From: Candidatus Naiadarchaeum limnaeum
GTDB lineage: Archaea; Undinarchaeota; Undinarchaeia; Undinarchaeales; Naiadarchaeaceae
Direction of reading: 5' to 3'
Assembly: GCA_014189685.1 (NCBI GenBank)
Contig: DVAB01000013.1
Location: forward strand, 1 to 5,293
DNA length: 5,293 nucleotides
The notes under the pieces are model-generated. The model searched no databases. It worked only from the letters and a program-made list of their open reading frames with translations, and had not been told where the DNA came from. The position numbers were made by a program, and so were the translations under genes. Below are positions 1-5,293 of this stretch, piece after piece. Numbering within the stretch: the stretch's first letter is position 1; each line of letters begins with the position of its first letter.

Positions 1-1444
1 AAACATCTTCGAGGAACCCTGGACCTTAAGGCGGAGATGATTCACACATCTCTTTACTACTACTTCCGGCGGGATTTTCTTTCCTGCGTTGTCCACACTC
101 CCTCACGGGGGTGCTTCTGCCAACGAAGGATGCCTCCTTAACAACCGCAACAGAGTTGCGGCTCTGAAGTCTCGGTAGCTAGTTTAAGCCCCGTACATCT
201 TCAGGGCCATTGACCTCGGAGGGTGAGCTGTTACGCACTCCTTGGAGGGTGGCTGCTTCTAAGCCAACCTTCCCTCTGTTTTGGGCCAACGACGCCTTTC
301 AGTAACACTTAACTAGCATTTAGGGACCTTAACTCCAGTCACGGCTGTTCCCGTTGCGGACACAGAGCTTACCCCTGCGCCCTCACTCCCAGCTTCTACG
401 ACTTTGCGAAATTCGGAGTTTGACAAGCAAGCGAACCCTTTCGAGTCCTAACCCACTAATCAGTATCTCTACCTTCACAAACGTCTCAGCTGAGGCTGTA
501 CTTAGATACATTTCAGGAGGAACCAGCTATCCCCAATCTCGATTGGTTTTTCGCCCCTACTCCCAAGTCACATCAGCGAATAGGATCAACACGACTTTAG
601 ACCTCCACCCCGCTTTCGCGAGGCTTCGTCTTGCTCAGGAGTAGATCGACTGGCTTCGGGTCTGGCCTCAACGACTACGCGCACTTTTTATACGCAGCGC
701 CTCGCAACAAAAGTTGTTGCGCGCCTTTGCTTTCGCTTCGGCTTCTCTTTGCAAAAAGATTAGCCTCGCCGTTGAAGCAAACTCCCCGCCCCGTTTTTCA
801 AAACGGATGTTACGACACTGTTCAACTCTAAAAGAATTCCTTCCTTACGAAAGTTCATCTCAAAAAGTCACATTCCTTTCGCGCCGTAACTGACTATAGC
901 CAATTGGTTTCAGGATCTTTTCACCTCTTGCCAGAGATGCTTTTCAGCATTCCCTCACAGTACTATTGCGCTATCGGTCTTGAGTTGTATTTAGGGTTAG
1001 CTCTCGATAGAGCCATATTCATACTCCATATCCAAGGAGCACTACTCTGGAAGCAGCTACAACTTGCAATCTTATGCATACGGGCCTTTCACCCTCTATG
1101 GGGCCTCTTTCCAGAAGCTTCTGCTTAGTTACAAGTTGATGTCGCTGCTCCAAACATCACATCTCTACACAATTGCTTATGCAGATTCAATTTGCCCTGT
1201 TCCGCTTTCTATCGCCTTTACTAACGGAATCGCAATTGTTTTCTCTTCCTGCGCTTACTAAGATGCTTCACTTCAGCGCGTTCTCTCTCTCAGTGAGTTA
1301 TGTTCTCTGTTAGAGAACACAATGAGTTCACATTCGGGAATCTCCGGATCTAAGGCCGCATGCGCCTCCCCGGAGCATTTCGCTGCTTGCCGCGCCCTTC
1401 TTCGACACTCAAGCCAAGCCATCCACCAACTGGCGTTTTTGCCC
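1..1444 (-). rRNA. 23S ribosomal RNA, 5' part (partial)
   Basis: This is the 5' half of the large-subunit rRNA, read on the minus strand; the 3' half lies beyond the left edge. Conserved blocks are recognisable in order from the 5' end: GCCAGTTGGTGGATGGC near 1434-1418, the GACCCGAAGCC segment near 655, GGGGATAGCTGGTTCC near 520-535, and the L11/GTPase-centre block GGCTTAGAAGCAGCC near 250-270. The spacing of these blocks is close to that of ordinary archaeal 23S and longer than E. coli, with no interruption large enough to be an intron. The 5' end is placed about 10 bases before GCCAGTTGG by analogy with other archaeal 23S genes, so it is uncertain by several bases. A small hairpin with a perfect 7-bp stem (704-720) adds a lineage-specific extension between the GGCGAGGCTAA and GACCCGAAG blocks. 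Several open frames on the opposite strand here are artefacts of rRNA sequence. Confidence 0.96.
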
Positions 1445-1541
1445 AGTTTACACGCTTTGCAGGACCAATGTTATCTCATTGAGCGCGCGCAGAATAGGTA
1501 ATCGTATAATTTTGTTACGCGGCCCTTGAACTTCACTTGCA

Positions 1542-1557
1542 TCACACAAATGTGTGA
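1542..1557. repeat. Perfect inverted repeat upstream of 23S
   Basis: TCACACA-AA-TGTGTGA is a perfect 7-bp inverted repeat with a 2-base centre, about 100 bases upstream of the mature 23S 5' end. It could be a hairpin in the 23S leader or, as DNA, a symmetric protein-binding site. The sequence shows only the symmetry; the role is unknown. Confidence 0.5.
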
Positions 1558-1660
1558 AGAGTTGCACAGCTTTACTCACAAAAAATTTTGAGCATAGGAC
1601 ATAGCCCTAGCTCGTTTCAAACAAGAAACAATAAACGCCGTGTCTTAGACAGAGGGCATC

Positions 1661-1680
1661 GTTTTCCTTCGCAGGAAAAC
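1661..1680. repeat. Hairpin with 7-bp stem and A/T tract
   Basis: GTTTTCC at 1661-1667 pairs exactly with GGAAAAC at 1674-1680 across a 6-base loop (TTCGCA), and a run of seven A follows on the plus strand (1681-1687). On the minus strand the T run precedes the hairpin, so it is not a standard intrinsic terminator for 23S transcription. It may be a structured element of a long 23S leader; no function can be assigned. Confidence 0.45.
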
Positions 1681-1785
1681 AAAAAAAGTAACAGTCACAA
1701 AGTTAATCTTATTACTTTAACCAATGCGGACTGTTCTTGTTTTCATAATTGTGAACTTAAAGCTCTATAAATATAATATAAAGAG

Positions 1786-1793
1786 TATTTAAA
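1786..1793 (+). promoter_or_regulatory. TATA box of the Nudix gene
   Basis: TATTTAAA is centred about 29 bases before the ATG at 1819, with GTTGCG following it. With the usual archaeal distance of about 26 bases from TATA centre to transcription start, transcription would begin within about 3 bases of the start codon. No Shine-Dalgarno sequence precedes the ATG, so a leaderless or near-leaderless mRNA is expected. Confidence 0.6.
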
Positions 1794-1818
1794 GGTTGCG
1801 AATTTAGAAATAAACAGT

Positions 1819-2211
1819 ATGAATATTATAGAACTATCTGGCTGCGTAATTATAGCCAATGGAAAACTTTTAGTTTTATGGAAGAACGAACACGGTCACT
1901 ACGAACTGCCTGGTGGTAAGGTAAAAGAAGGTGAAACTCTTGAAGAAGCTGCAATTAGAGAGACAAAGGAAGAAATTGGTTGTGATGTTGAGTTGCTAAA
2001 ATACGCCGGCTATATAGATTTTAGTATAAAAGGTAAAAATTGCAGGAGTCATAACTATTTAGCTAAAATAAAAGAAGGACAAACCCCGCGAATAATGGAA
2101 CCAAAATCATTTAAAGATTTGATATGGCTTCCAATTGAAAATTATGAGGAATATACTGTTGCACCAAACGTCAAAAAAATATGTGAAGATTATCTAAGTG
2201 GCAAGTTTTAA
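1819..2211 (+). CDS. Nudix (MutT-like) hydrolase
   Basis: The 130-residue product is a single-domain Nudix hydrolase, a family that hydrolyses nucleoside diphosphates linked to another moiety in a metal-dependent way. The Nudix box GX5EX7REUXEEXGU is complete at residues 33-55: G33, E39, R47-E48, E51-E52 and G54, with the metal-binding glutamates all present; Thr49 stands where a hydrophobic residue is usual. The preceding beta-strand segment SGCVIIANGKLLVLWKN and YELPGGK are typical of MutT/ADP-ribose pyrophosphatase-like members. The length is normal for a minimal Nudix protein. Substrate cannot be read from sequence: nucleotide sanitation (8-oxo-dGTP-like), ADP-ribose or another small phosphate ester are all possible. 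The start is supported by a TATA box placed for leaderless transcription. The gene is convergent with the tRNA-binding protein gene, with a single base between the two stop codons, so the 3' ends of the two transcripts probably overlap. Confidence 0.93.
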   Translation: MNIIELSGCVIIANGKLLVLWKNEHGHYELPGGKVKEGETLEEAAIRETKEEIGCDVELLKYAGYIDFSIKGKNCRSHNYLAKIKEGQTPRIMEPKSFKDLIWLPIENYEEYTVAPNVKKICEDYLSGKF

Positions 2212-2212
2212 T

Positions 2213-2545
2213 TTATCTTGCCTCGGCTCCGACTTCAACATCCCTATCAACAGTTAGCAAAACAACTTTTCCTTTTTTATCATCAGCAGCCAACAGCATT
2301 CCGTTAGAAACTTCGCCGCCGATTTTTGCAGGCTGTAAATTCTCAACTAAAATTATTTTTTTGTTAATTAATTCTTCAATACTATAATAAGGGGCGATTC
2401 CTGCAATTAACTGAACAAGCGCACCGCGGCCAATATCAATTTTTAATTTGTAGAGCTTATCCTTGCCAGAGATTTTTTCAGCTTCTTTTATTTGGCCAAC
2501 CAAAAGATTTACTTTTTTGAATTCCTCAAAGGATATTTTTTCCAT
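2213..2545 (-). CDS. tRNA-binding OB-fold protein (MetRS beta-like)
   Basis: The 110-residue product is a stand-alone tRNA-binding domain of the EMAP-II/Arc1p/MetRS C-terminal type (COG0073-like, OB fold). Characteristic segments are FEEFKKVNLLVGQI near residues 6-19, the DKLYKLKIDIG strand near 29-39, the G-I-APYYSIEELINKK segment near 49-63, VENLQPAKIGGEVSNGMLLAA near 67-87 and a short acidic C-terminus. In many archaea this domain is encoded apart from methionyl-tRNA synthetase and is thought to bind tRNA non-specifically, raising synthetase affinity, probably as a dimer in the cytoplasm. The length is right for the isolated domain. The ATG at 2545 sits about 26 bases from the centre of a TATA element on its own strand and has no clear Shine-Dalgarno, so leaderless expression is likely. 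The gene is divergent from tRNA-Ala, sharing the promoter interval. A free CsaA-type chaperone is the main alternative, but the MetRS-beta-like motifs fit better. Confidence 0.88.
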   Translation of the reverse strand: MEKISFEEFKKVNLLVGQIKEAEKISGKDKLYKLKIDIGRGALVQLIAGIAPYYSIEELINKKIILVENLQPAKIGGEVSNGMLLAADDKKGKVVLLTVDRDVEVGAEAR

Positions 2546-2563
2546 GGACGCAAAATGATTAAT

Positions 2564-2576
2564 AAAGTATAAAAGT
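2564..2576. promoter_or_regulatory. Shared bidirectional TATA element
   Basis: The sequence AAAGTATAAAAGT reads as TATAAAAG on the plus strand (2568-2575) and CTTTTATACTTTA on the minus strand. Its centre, about 2571, is roughly 26 bases from the ATG of the tRNA-binding protein (2545, minus) and about 32 bases before the tRNA-Ala 5' end (2603, plus), predicting a plus-strand start some 5 bases before the tRNA. A purine-rich BRE-like segment, AATAAAG, precedes the plus-strand TATA. One AT-rich element therefore seems placed to drive both genes; a separate weaker TATA for one direction cannot be excluded. Confidence 0.6.
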
Positions 2577-2602
2577 GTTTAGATATAGGATTATCTGCTC
2601 AT

Positions 2603-2674
2603 GGGCTCGTAGCTCAGCAGCAGAGCGCCTGCTTTGCAAGCAGGAGGCCGCGTGTGCGATTCACGCCGAGTCCA
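2603..2674 (+). tRNA. tRNA-Ala (anticodon TGC)
   Basis: The gene folds as a full cloverleaf. The acceptor stem GGGCTCG (2603-2609) pairs with CGAGTCC (2667-2673) and includes G3-U70, the classic alanine identity pair. The D stem is GCTC/GAGC, the anticodon stem CCTGC/GCAGG encloses TTTGCAA with anticodon TGC (2635-2637), and the T stem is GCGTG/CACGC. The discriminator is A2674 and CCA is not encoded. There is no intron. Two tertiary-contact positions are unusual: the D loop, AGCAGCA, lacks the usual GG pair, and the T loop, TGCGATT, has G where U55 is expected. Archaeal 16S-23S spacers often carry tRNA-Ala(TGC), but on the same strand as the rRNAs; here it is on the opposite strand. No T-rich terminator follows, so transcription may run into the next gene. 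Confidence 0.95.
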
Positions 2675-2682
2675 CTCTTACA

Positions 2683-3186
2683 ATGGTCAAATTTATTGAT
2701 GGGGGTAATGTAATCGAAATAGTTCCAGAGAATTTGAAAATAGTAATTTTGTTCAGAATTATTGCAGAGGAAGCGTTTTTAATGGCTGTGCGAAAAAAAT
2801 TGCAAGAGCTAAGAAGGGAGAAGCCAAAAGATGCTTTTGGAATTGTGTTTTTCATGGAAAATCGCACAGCAATTGAAAGGCTGCGCGCGATCAGAGATGG
2901 ACAAAAAGAAATTTTAGAAACTATGTTAGAAATGATTGCAAGAGAAATTCTGCGACACAACTTGCGCGAGATAAGGAGAATGACAGACGTTACTGAAGAG
3001 GTTTTGCTATGGTTTAACTATGCTGTTGGCTTTAAATGTGGCGTAGAAATTAGAGGAGAGCTAGTAATTGAAGAGAGAAGACCTTTAAGGCGCAGATACT
3101 TTTTTGATAAGAAAAAATTTGAGTCAGTTCAAGGAGAATCTTCAACTGCAGAACTAATAAAAAGAATTAAATTTCGATTAGGATGA
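2683..3186 (+). CDS. Hypothetical protein, 167 residues
   Basis: I do not recognise this family. The open frame runs upstream into the tRNA gene, so the start must be internal; the ATG at 2683, 8 bases after the tRNA 3' end, is the first after the tRNA. The alternative ATG at 2782 (residue 34) has an AGAGG 11 bases before it. The product is soluble, with a mixed N-terminus (residues 1-35, hydrophobic LKIVILFRII), a charged helical middle (36-100, rich in Arg and Glu, with heptad-like Leu/Ile spacing near 64-98), then LLWFNYAVGFKCGVEIRGELVIEE (about 108-131) that looks like a helix followed by beta strands, and a basic tail. No catalytic motif or membrane segment is evident. An opposite-strand open frame (2661-2960) overlaps but is less credible. 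There is no promoter of its own in the 8-base gap, so it may be expressed from the tRNA promoter. The stop codon overlaps the start of a DUF488-like remnant (ATGA), a typical operon junction. Confidence 0.7.
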   Translation: MVKFIDGGNVIEIVPENLKIVILFRIIAEEAFLMAVRKKLQELRREKPKDAFGIVFFMENRTAIERLRAIRDGQKEILETMLEMIAREILRHNLREIRRMTDVTEEVLLWFNYAVGFKCGVEIRGELVIEERRPLRRRYFFDKKKFESVQGESSTAELIKRIKFRLG

Positions 3187-3260
3187 AAATTTTCACAATA
3201 GGCCACAGCGCACTCCGAAAATTAAATGCGAATAATCAACAAAAGTTTTCTGTAGCATAA
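3183..3260 (+). pseudogene. Truncated DUF488-like N-terminus
   Basis: An ATG at 3183 overlaps the stop of the upstream gene as ATGA and opens MKIFTIGHS, which matches the usual N-terminus of DUF488 proteins (MKIYTIGHS-type, with the TIGHS motif). The frame then continues ALRKLNAN, which does not resemble the family, and stops at 3258-3260 after 25 codons; genuine DUF488 proteins are well over 100 residues. From 3236 on the sequence is the 3' end of the convergent CAP gene. I read this as the start of a DUF488 gene cut off near 3210-3235 by a rearrangement. The evidence is only about nine residues plus the operon-like overlap, so a chance match remains possible. Confidence 0.4.
3216..3235 (-). 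terminator. Possible terminator after CAP gene
   Basis: Directly after the CAP stop codon the minus strand reads TTATTCGCATTTAATTTTC, a T-rich stretch resembling, in weaker form, the CGCAC-plus-T-tract found after the hydrolase gene and the 16S rRNA. Archaeal termination mainly needs T tracts, so this is plausible but weak. Confidence 0.35.
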
Positions 3261-3937
3261 ACAGTATAATTGTCCGTAACAAAAACTCCAATTCCTTCTG
3301 TTTTCCAAAAAGGTTTTAAAATTTCTTCGCGATGGGAAGTGCTGTTCATCCAACCATTAACAAGTGAGTTCGCGAGCTCTTCTGAAGTGTAATAGTCAGA
3401 GGAAATATGAATTCGCTCACCAGTGCGAACGTTTTCCTTGTACCAATCTTTTTGCTTCAGTTCTATGAGGAAAAGATTTTCCGCACCATTAGAAATCTCA
3501 CGAAGATTGTCTTCTTCTCTGATCACAACATTACACTTAAAGCCAAACTTGTTATAGCGGTAGAGAAAATTTCTTCCCTCTGGGTCTTTGTGACCAAAAT
3601 AATTACGAATGCCCATGTCCTTGCTGTGCGTCCGCGCAATAAGGGATAGATTATTATTCCATTCCAATGTGTTTAAGCTAAAAGTTGTACGCTGCACATT
3701 GATGAGATCGTGAATTCTGCGCTCAAGCGTGCTTGTATTAATTATGGACGTGTTGTTGATTTGTATAATAGTAGTTTCGTCTGGAAATTTTTGCACAACA
3801 GTAGGCGGCTCAGTAGGCTTTTCAGATAGAGGAGTAGACTGAATAGGATCTTGAGAGTTCGGAGAGCTCTGATTAATACAGCCTGCAAAAATTATGCTCA
3901 GTAAAAGAAAAAGATAGGTAAGAATTTTTCTGCGCAT
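3236..3937 (-). CDS. CAP/SCP-domain predicted lipoprotein
   Basis: The 233-residue product is a predicted exported protein with a C-terminal CAP domain (cysteine-rich secretory/SCP-like, PF00188 type). Residues 1-20 form a signal peptide: basic MRRK, a hydrophobic core LTYLFLLLSIIF, and a lipobox-like FAGC with Cys20 as the likely lipidated residue. Residues 21-70 are a Ser/Pro/Thr-rich and Asn-rich tether. The CAP domain spans about 74-233, with ARTHSKDM (His104), NYFGHKDPEGR (His116), GAENLF (Glu153, the GEN motif), NGWMNSTSHREEIL (His202) and the C-terminal YATENF signature, so the conserved His/Glu cavity residues are largely present. Such proteins act at the cell surface; the biochemical role in archaea is not established. 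The ATG lies about 26 bases from a TATA box and lacks a Shine-Dalgarno, so leaderless expression is likely. It is transcribed separately from the hydrolase gene, which ends 59 bases upstream with a T-tract between them. Confidence 0.88.
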   Translation of the reverse strand: MRRKILTYLFLLLSIIFAGCINQSSPNSQDPIQSTPLSEKPTEPPTVVQKFPDETTIIQINNTSIINTSTLERRIHDLINVQRTTFSLNTLEWNNNLSLIARTHSKDMGIRNYFGHKDPEGRNFLYRYNKFGFKCNVVIREEDNLREISNGAENLFLIELKQKDWYKENVRTGERIHISSDYYTSEELANSLVNGWMNSTSHREEILKPFWKTEGIGVFVTDNYTVYATENFC

Positions 3938-3956
3938 AATACGAGTAGATTTCTTA

Positions 3957-3964
3957 GATATAAA
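3957..3964 (-). promoter_or_regulatory. TATA box of the CAP gene
   Basis: On the minus strand TTTATATC is centred near 3961, 24 bases from the CAP start codon at 3937. This predicts transcription starting at or within a couple of bases of the ATG, matching the leaderless pattern of the Nudix and tRNA-binding protein genes. Confidence 0.6.
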
Positions 3965-3972
3965 TTGTTTTG

Positions 3973-3990
3973 CAAAAATAAAAAAGTGCG
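3973..3990 (-). terminator. T-tract terminator after the hydrolase gene
   Basis: Six bases past the hydrolase stop codon the minus strand reads CGCACTTTTTTATTTTTG. Runs of T on the non-template strand are the main signal for archaeal termination. The same CGCAC-T5/6-ATTTTT sequence occurs after the 16S rRNA. Confidence 0.6.
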
Positions 3991-3996
3991 AATAAA

Positions 3997-4776
3997 TTAT
4001 TTATAAGCTTCAGGCTGCCTATCTTTTAAAAAATTAACAATTTGCTTAAAGCCTTCACTTGCTTTTTTATCAATTGTTGCTGTGAGAACTTCCTCTTTAT
4101 TGCCGCACTCAATAACAGCATTACCATAAGGATTTACGATTCTGCTGCTGCCAAAATAGGTAAATGTGTTGTCTTTACCAATGCGATTTGCAGCAACAAT
4201 CCAGAATTGATTGTCAAAAGCACGTGCGCTAGTTGCTAATTTCCACTGCGGCAAAAAAGGATCCATCCAATTTGATGGCATGAAAACAGTATCCGCCCCA
4301 TTTAATGCTAACTGCCTTGCAACCTCTGGAAAAACAGCGTCATAGCATATCATTAATCCAACTTTTCCAAATTTAGTATCTGCAACAGCATACTCGTTTC
4401 CGCGAGTAACACAGGACGGTTCTTCCATGAACATATGGATTTTTCTATATTTTGCAAGCAAGTCTCCGCTTGGATTTATTAGGACTGCTGTGTTGTAAAT
4501 CTTATCATTTGATCGTTCAGGAATTGAAGCAACTATATGAATGCTATTTTCTTCAGCAATAGAGCTTAGCTTTTCAGCGATGCGCCCAGGAATAGGATCT
4601 GCTAATTTACTAAGCTGCTCCGGTGCCCATCCTGTTGGCAGATATTCTGGCAGGCACACAAAATCAGCATTTTGTTTTGAGGCTTGAGCAACCAGCTCGG
4701 CAGCTTTTTTTAGATTAACTGCTATATCCGCAAGCTTGATATCCATCTGAACAAGTGCAACTTTAAATTCGTTCAT
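3997..4776 (-). CDS. Carbon-nitrogen hydrolase (nitrilase superfamily)
   Basis: The 259-residue product is a cytoplasmic carbon-nitrogen hydrolase, cleaving an amide or related C-N bond with a Glu-Lys-Cys triad. All three are visible: Glu44 in VCLPEYLPTGW, Lys112 in KYRKIHMF and Cys144 in GLMICYDAVFPE; the MPSNWMDP and ARAFDNQFWIVAANRIG segments are also typical. The length is normal for a single-domain member. The substrate is unclear: omega-amidase/Nit2-like, N-carbamoylputrescine amidase-like and other amidases are all candidates. The start is ATG 4776: GAGGTG (4781-4786) lies directly before it at normal spacing and complements the CACCTC of the 16S tail. A TTG at 4788 would extend the protein by four residues but overlaps that Shine-Dalgarno, so I reject it. 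It is the first gene after the 16S, with its own promoter, and ends in a T-tract. Confidence 0.93.
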   Translation of the reverse strand: MNEFKVALVQMDIKLADIAVNLKKAAELVAQASKQNADFVCLPEYLPTGWAPEQLSKLADPIPGRIAEKLSSIAEENSIHIVASIPERSNDKIYNTAVLINPSGDLLAKYRKIHMFMEEPSCVTRGNEYAVADTKFGKVGLMICYDAVFPEVARQLALNGADTVFMPSNWMDPFLPQWKLATSARAFDNQFWIVAANRIGKDNTFTYFGSSRIVNPYGNAVIECGNKEEVLTATIDKKASEGFKQIVNFLKDRQPEAYK

Positions 4777-4780
4777 AACC

Positions 4781-4786
4781 CACCTC
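4781..4786 (-). promoter_or_regulatory. Shine-Dalgarno site of the hydrolase gene
   Basis: GAGGTG on the minus strand, four bases before ATG 4776, is an exact complement of the CACCTC in the 16S 3' tail seen in this same window. It decides the start codon, and it is the only strong Shine-Dalgarno directly before a gene start in the window; the other protein genes appear leaderless. Confidence 0.75.
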
Positions 4787-4815
4787 AATAATTTTGAAAT
4801 GTAAAGAAGTTGTGG

Positions 4816-4823
4816 TTTATAAA
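4816..4823 (-). promoter_or_regulatory. TATA box of the hydrolase gene
   Basis: TTTATAAA (minus) is centred near 4819, predicting a transcript start near 4793 and a leader of about 17 bases, enough to hold the Shine-Dalgarno. It lies downstream of the 16S T-tract, so the hydrolase gene need not depend on rRNA readthrough. Confidence 0.65.
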
Positions 4824-4849
4824 GTTATGGACAGTGTTTCAAATTTTTT

Positions 4850-4877
4850 AAAAATAAAAAGTGCGGGCTCAGTGAGC
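4850..4877 (-). terminator. Terminator downstream of 16S rRNA
   Basis: On the minus strand a short hairpin GCTC-ACT-GAGC (4867-4877) is followed by CCGCAC and then TTTTTATTTTT (4850-4860), 40 to 67 bases past the 16S 3' end. Hairpin plus T tract, and identity of the CGCAC-T-tract with the one after the hydrolase gene, support termination of 16S transcription here rather than continuation to the 23S. Confidence 0.6.
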
Positions 4878-4892
4878 AAACTCTCTCTATTA

Positions 4893-4910
4893 TCCATTCA
4901 TTTGAATGGA
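4893..4910 (-). repeat. Perfect hairpin just after 16S 3' end
   Basis: TCCATTCA-TT-TGAATGGA is a perfect 8-bp inverted repeat starting 7 bases past the mature 16S 3' end. In RNA a 7-bp stem with a four-base loop is likely. It may take part in 3' maturation; the usual long processing stem would need the 16S 5' flank, which is outside the window. Confidence 0.55.
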
Positions 4911-4916
4911 AATCTT

Positions 4917-5293
4917 AGGAGGTGATCTATCCGCAGGTTCCCCTACGGATACCTTGTTACGACTTAACCCCCCTTGCCGAGCTTGAGTTCAACTCTCGCA
5001 AGAACGAGAGCATTACTTAAACCCGACTCAGGTGATTTGACGGGCGGTGTGTACAAGGAGCAGGGACATATTCACCGCGTCATAGTGAAACGCGATTACT
5101 AGGGATTCCGGCTTCACGAGCCTGGGTTACAAGGCTCGATCCGAATTAAGCGCGGATTTAAGGATTGGCTTCACCTCTCGGTGTTGCAGCCCATTGTTCC
5201 GCGCATTGTAGTCCGCGTGTAGCCTGGGGGATTCGGGGCATACTGACCTACCGTTGACCATTCCTTCCTCTGCTTAATCAGCAGCGGTCTCGC
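4917..5293 (-). rRNA. 16S ribosomal RNA, 3' part (partial)
   Basis: This is the last 377 bases of small-subunit rRNA on the minus strand; the rest lies beyond the right edge. The universal TTGTACACACCGCCCGTC decoding-site block is near 5035-5055, AAGTCGTAACAAGGTA near 4950-4965, and the 3' terminus is GATCACCTCCT with an intact anti-Shine-Dalgarno, ending at 4917. The pattern of GGCAAGGGGGGTTAAGTCG and GGCATACTGACC-complement blocks is archaeal, not bacterial. In helix 45 the 3' side reads GCGGATAGATCACC where GCGGTTGGATCACC or CTGGATCACC is usual; the change at the paired base is matched by the opposite strand (GTATCCG). Confidence 0.97.

Follow-up and report, generated by a model that had tools for sequence, protein, structure and literature searches.

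The window analysed here (5,293 nt) is the complete contig C47 of an archaeal metagenome-assembled genome (MAG) of 983,883 bases in 52 contigs. It bears rRNA at each end, so that both the 16S and the 23S gene are cut by the contig boundaries (Table 1). The MAG is that of Candidatus Naiadarchaeum limnaeum, which is listed as SRR2090159.bin1129 with a size of 0.98 Mb, 52 contigs, a G+C content of 37.9% and an unannotated 16S (PMC7414124, Table 1). This organism is an aquifer archaeon with a small genome. Using the 16S of the relative ARS1358 as a query, the first 471 nt of the 16S gene were found at the end of another contig of the same bin (C25). The bin lacks the middle of the 16S as well as the 3' half of the host-lineage 23S.

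Table 1. Features of the 5,293 nt window
Feature	Position	Strand	Evidence and remarks
23S rRNA, 5' half	1..1450	-	Rfam RF02540, 1223.6 bits, model positions 1-1455
23S leader end, block AACATTGGTCCTGC	1451..1481	-	Common to the linked relatives, where it is the 5' half of the 23S stem
TTTAAATA, candidate TATA box of a separate 23S promoter	1786..1793	-	Upstream of the 23S; exact TTTAWATA
Nudix hydrolase gene	1819..2211	+	Pfam PF00293, E-value 1.6e-17
Stand-alone tRNA_bind protein, MetG C-terminal type	2213..2545	-	PF01588, E-value 1.3e-27; TIGR00399 just under cut-off
tRNA-Ala(UGC) (gene anticodon TGC)	2603..2674	+	Opposite strand to both rRNAs; spacer tRNA of the ancestral operon
Orphan ORF, 167 aa	2683..3186	+	Starts 8 nt past the tRNA-Ala; no family match
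CAP (SCP-like) protein, lipoprotein-like signal	3236..3937	-	Pfam PF00188, E-value 3.9e-12; signal read from the sequence
CN_hydrolase gene, carbon-nitrogen hydrolase (nitrilase family)	3997..4776	-	Pfam PF00795, E-value 7e-63
T-tract TTTTTATTTTT	4850..4860	-	Immediately past the 16S stem; seen in the sequence; possible terminator
16S 3' trailer	4861..4916	-	Contains the 3' half of the 16S processing stem
16S rRNA, 3' 377 nt	4917..5293	-	Rfam RF01959, 350 bits, model positions 1099-1478

The two rRNA genes are co-oriented, in the order 16S then 23S, and the gap between them (bp 1451-4916; 3,466 nt) contains five ORFs and a tRNA-Ala(UGC) gene. An initial annotation of this DNA had described rRNA genes on one strand, in canonical order and approximately 3.5 kb apart, and the Rfam models agree, placing both on the minus strand and the 16S 3' end at the same base (4917). 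The 23S was likewise located correctly, but its 5' end, which had been put near 1444, lies 6 nt away at 1450. Nudix, tRNA-binding, hypothetical, CAP and hydrolase genes had also been proposed between the rRNAs; Pfam domains support four of these, and the fifth ORF matches nothing. The tRNA had been noticed as well, but its strand had been overlooked: it is encoded on the plus strand. This antisense orientation is the most telling detail of the locus.

Two relatives from the same order (Undinarchaeales), ARS1358 (NZBN01, G003) and UBA543 (G002), carry a linked operon in which 16S, tRNA-Ala(UGC) and 23S follow one another in the same orientation; the spacers measure 295 and 446 nt and contain no protein genes. 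We take the order relatives to be Undinarchaeota, based on their order membership and on the placement of UBA543. In a phylogenetic tree, the window 23S groups with three Undinarchaeota relatives (support 100/100). The window has the same three RNA genes, the same rRNA order and the same kind of 16S stem as the linked operons, but the usual short spacer is replaced by 3,466 nt, the tRNA has left the rRNA strand and protein genes occupy the interval. The linked layout of the euryarchaeal type (a short spacer with a sense tRNA-Ala) is similarly not matched. The displaced tRNA-Ala(UGC) is almost identical to its sense counterpart in the ARS1358 spacer. Among the typed tRNAs of the bin it is the sole alanine tRNA with a UGC anticodon, four weak tRNA matches lacking a locus having been left untyped. 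Because two order relatives keep the canonical operon, the opening of the spacer is interpreted as derived in the host lineage. The proposal in the initial annotation that an ancestral operon had been opened is thus borne out by the contiguous arrangement of these relatives.

The protein genes of the gap give few indications of how they were acquired. No homologues of the orphan ORF were found in 100 other archaeal genomes, and no matches to the CN_hydrolase were found in five order relatives, several of which are only 75-86% complete. The failure to find these two genes in the order relatives would be expected if a mobile element had inserted at the tRNA-Ala and brought in the five genes, and tRNA genes are frequent integration sites. 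We consider such an event highly improbable for three reasons. First, the gap encodes no integrase, recombinase or transposase. Second, the 3' end of the tRNA is not directly repeated, apart from a chance-like match of 77%. Third, insertion alone does not produce a flipped tRNA. A perfect 16-nt inverted repeat (bp 2322-2337 and 3877-3892) brackets the tRNA-Ala and the orphan ORF, a position that would suit an inversion. It was rejected as an inversion trace and is probably a chance occurrence: its arms fall within coding motifs (the tRNA_bind core and the CAP lipobox).

Both rRNA genes appear to have kept elements used in processing. The trailer on C47 and the 60 nt that precede the 16S on C25 form two long helices with each other (15 bp and approximately 14 bp; -57.7 kcal/mol), and the leader/trailer duplex gave -42.3 compared with -20.2 ± 4.0 for shuffled sequences. 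In the linked relatives, the 16S leader and trailer pair likewise. In the predicted fold, a leader-side hairpin lies between the two helices, where a clean bulge-helix-bulge would be canonical. On the 23S side, the leader end retains the block that in the linked relatives forms the 5' half of the 23S stem.

This conservation also bears on whether the arrangement is real. A contig of just 5.3 kb from a MAG, with rRNA at both ends and a foreign 23S elsewhere in the bin (contig C34), could be a chimera in which unrelated DNA has been fused to the end of a 16S and the start of a 23S, in an organism with a normal operon. Such chimeras arise in conserved rRNA rather than in unique spacer, however, and here the trailer in the window pairs with a leader on a different contig, the end of the 23S leader is common to relatives, and both rRNA pieces carry an Undinarchaeota identity. 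In addition, the G+C content of the gap (0.37) is close to that of the whole MAG (37.9%; PMC7414124), and the bin holds one 16S 5' piece and one 16S 3' piece. Based on the leader/trailer pairing, the shared 23S leader block, the lineage identity of the rRNAs and the gap G+C, an artefact is disfavoured; misassembly of C47 is unlikely, and a chimera within an organism with an intact operon very much so. The case that the initial annotation had named as fatal to its reading, a second complete operon with this contig a chimera between rRNA copies, is disfavoured by the single 16S pieces, the stem formed across contigs and the grouping with Undinarchaeota.

The C34 23S is only approximately 61% identical to the window 23S and is accompanied by a second aIF2-beta gene, and on these grounds a second, divergent rRNA operon in the host genome was rejected. 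In the tree, this sequence falls outside the Undinarchaeota, with its own position weakly supported. It is probably a contaminant and should not serve as the 23S of the Ca. Naiadarchaeum limnaeum MAG.

The order and strand shared by the rRNA genes, together with the short distance between them, could be taken to indicate a stretched operon, with one long transcript spanning the 16S, the 3.5 kb gap and the 23S and the rRNAs being cut out of it. A single transcript is unlikely because the Nudix, tRNA-Ala and orphan genes lie on the opposite strand. Furthermore, a T-tract directly follows the 16S stem, as the initial annotation had observed, and for separate rRNA loci the 16S is assumed to have its own promoter (PMC12918454). 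We therefore regard a stretched operon as very improbable. From the three opposite-strand genes and the T-tract, it is likely that the 16S and 23S are transcribed independently. Circularisation of the 16S has been reported in both operon and separate layouts (PMC12918454).

Promoter signals contribute little to this prediction. The initial annotation had cited TATA elements in the gap as a sign of independent transcription, but exact TTTAWATA matches number one in the whole window against 0.85 expected by chance. This chance-level count does not support that argument, and the box upstream of the 23S is no more than a candidate. A motif search upstream of the tRNAs of the host genome yielded no usable promoter motif, and a sigma-70 promoter scan was set aside as inapplicable to archaea.

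Based on these results, we consider it highly probable that the locus is a derived state in which the ancestral 16S-tRNA-Ala(UGC)-23S operon of an undinarchaeon has become unlinked over a short range, with inversion of the tRNA and predicted separate transcription of the rRNAs. The spacer would have opened at a point past the 16S trailer and ahead of the 23S leader, such that each rRNA retained its processing elements, and the spacer tRNA-Ala would have been inverted; the 3.5 kb would then have come to be filled by the five protein genes now present on both strands. This opening may have occurred by one insertion and an inversion or, alternatively, by several inversions. Transcription of the 16S would begin at a dedicated promoter on C25 and probably end at the T-tract past the processing stem, while the 23S would have a separate promoter ahead of a leader of approximately 300 nt. 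Plus-strand transcription would yield the tRNA-Ala, probably together with the orphan ORF. Excision of the 16S should still be possible via the leader/trailer stem, and the 23S is predicted to retain no less than the leader-side half of its own stem. In Ca. Naiadarchaeum limnaeum, this arrangement is known from one genome of its family.

To place the locus among other archaea, 16S and 23S positions were compared in two BLAST surveys of 256 archaeal genomes (completeness of at least 90%); positions were read by eye and the counts are minimum values. Where both genes lie on one contig, they are linked within approximately 0.8 kb in most genomes. Larger distances occur in some families, such as f35 (17-33 kb in G233, G245, G220 and G067). 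Gaps of 1-5 kb with order and strand preserved are rare, being found in the window genome, in at least five genomes of the nanohaloarchaeal family f21 and in at least one G233 copy (1,551 nt, without a tRNA). The f21 gaps measure 3,677 nt (G022), 2,561 nt (G133), 2,253 nt (G118), 1,965 nt (G064) and 1,760 nt (G161). As in the window, where rRNAs 1-5 kb apart in order on one strand enclose an antisense tRNA-Ala(UGC), all five contain a tRNA antisense to the rRNAs. This was typed as tRNA-Ala(UGC) in G022, G133 and G161; in G064 and G118 it was detected by Rfam only, has a length of approximately 150 nt that would fit the presence of an intron, and is presumed to be an alanine tRNA from its position. 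The f35 genomes with larger distances have their tRNA-Ala on the rRNA strand, which indicates that the flip is not obligatory.

Two of these nanohaloarchaeal genomes match published genomes in size: G022 matches Ca. Nanohalovita BNXNv (1,046,959 bp) and G161 matches Ca. Nanohalococcus SVXNc (948,351 bp). Their rRNA genes have been described only as lying in three different loci (PMC10266531). Like the window, the BNXNv and SVXNc loci consist of 16S, a gap (3,677 and 1,760 nt, respectively) with an antisense tRNA-Ala(UGC), and 23S in the same order; unlike it, they belong to another phylum and hold other gap genes. The occurrence of this gene arrangement in five nanohaloarchaeal genomes, two of which match published complete genomes in size, shows that an antisense-tRNA layout is viable. 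The gap genes vary between f21 genera, and comparison of the window proteins with the f21 gaps returned no matches. A common origin of the two gaps was rejected because they share no proteins and because linked operons exist in Undinarchaeales. Judging from these sequences, the flipped-tRNA state probably arose at least twice independently.

Thermoplasmatales, many DPANN and Asgard archaea are well known to have unlinked rRNA genes, although the frequency of archaeal unlinking has been called unclear and common ancestry at the phylum level has been suggested (PMC8997704). The window resembles these cases in that it has no short shared spacer, its rRNAs are probably transcribed separately and its organism is a small-genomed, probably host-dependent archaeon. 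It differs from classic unlinked genes in that the rRNAs are 3.5 kb apart in their ancestral order and strand and still enclose the tRNA-Ala, now inverted, and in that sister families have linked genes. A search of the open-access literature returned no account of a 16S-23S gap with an antisense tRNA-Ala. Thus, while unlinking itself is already known in archaea, near-linked rRNA genes flanking an inverted tRNA appear to be undescribed.

Surveys based on long 16S-23S amplicons would miss organisms with such loci. Since sister families are linked within one small phylum, unlinking can be placed inside the Undinarchaeota, and the nanohaloarchaeal event, with the same tRNA flip, provides a comparable stage on the way from linked to unlinked genes. 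We tentatively suggest, as a possibility rather than an expectation, that spacer opening with tRNA-Ala(UGC) inversion represents a repeatedly used route, or a stable intermediate stage, toward separate rRNA units in small-genomed archaea, taken independently in Undinarchaeota and Nanohaloarchaeota. If this is true, the flip would give the tRNA its own promoter and release the rRNA genes from co-transcription.

The 16S rRNA gene is split between two contigs of the bin. Because a 471-nt 5' part of this gene ends contig C25, this contig probably lies next to the window in the chromosome, and approximately 620 nt of 16S would be left unassembled between the two. Another archaeal 23S rRNA gene, almost full length, was found in the same bin on contig C34. 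It has approximately 61% identity to the 23S of the window, contains a group I intron and lies close to a second aIF2-beta gene. C34 is probably a contaminant contig, and the single 23S given for this MAG in Table 1 of PMC7414124 may be the C34 gene.

Locations of features discussed in the text
Feature	Contig or locus	Coordinates	Remark
16S 5' part	C25 (L056)	10550-11021	contig end
16S leader	C25 (L056)	10490-10549
23S leader	window	1451-1481
Inverted repeat arms	window	2322-2337, 3877-3892
Second 23S	C34 (L043)	1-3019
Group I intron	C34	1723-2009	RF00028
Nudix-like ORF	L110	1572-2018	G118
tRNA-Ala(UGC) and 23S	G046:C20 (L096)	554-5255

As in the window, 16S and 23S genes follow in order, 1.8-3.7 kb apart, in five genomes of the nanohaloarchaeal family f21 (L044, L108, L109, L110 and L111). 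All five carry an antisense tRNA between the two genes, and the protein genes of the gaps are not the same from genus to genus. One gap (G118), like that of the window, includes a Nudix-like ORF; since tblastn gave no match between the two, this likeness looks like coincidence.

Other layouts were also observed. G233, of family f35, has two 16S/23S pairs with unequal gaps: the shorter, of 1,551 nt, lacks a tRNA, and the longer, of approximately 17.8 kb, carries a sense tRNA-Ala. In G046, a sense tRNA-Ala(UGC) lies 4.6 kb upstream of the 23S and the 16S is on a different contig, as if the operon had opened between tRNA and 23S.

Within the window, the orphan ORF and the flipped tRNA both lie between the arms of a 16-nt perfect inverted repeat. 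As both arms are coding motifs, the repeat may be due to chance. The 23S leader, GCGCTCAATGAGATAA, resembles the 16S leader, GGGCTCAGTGAGATAT, and this likeness perhaps reflects a processing element common to both rRNAs.
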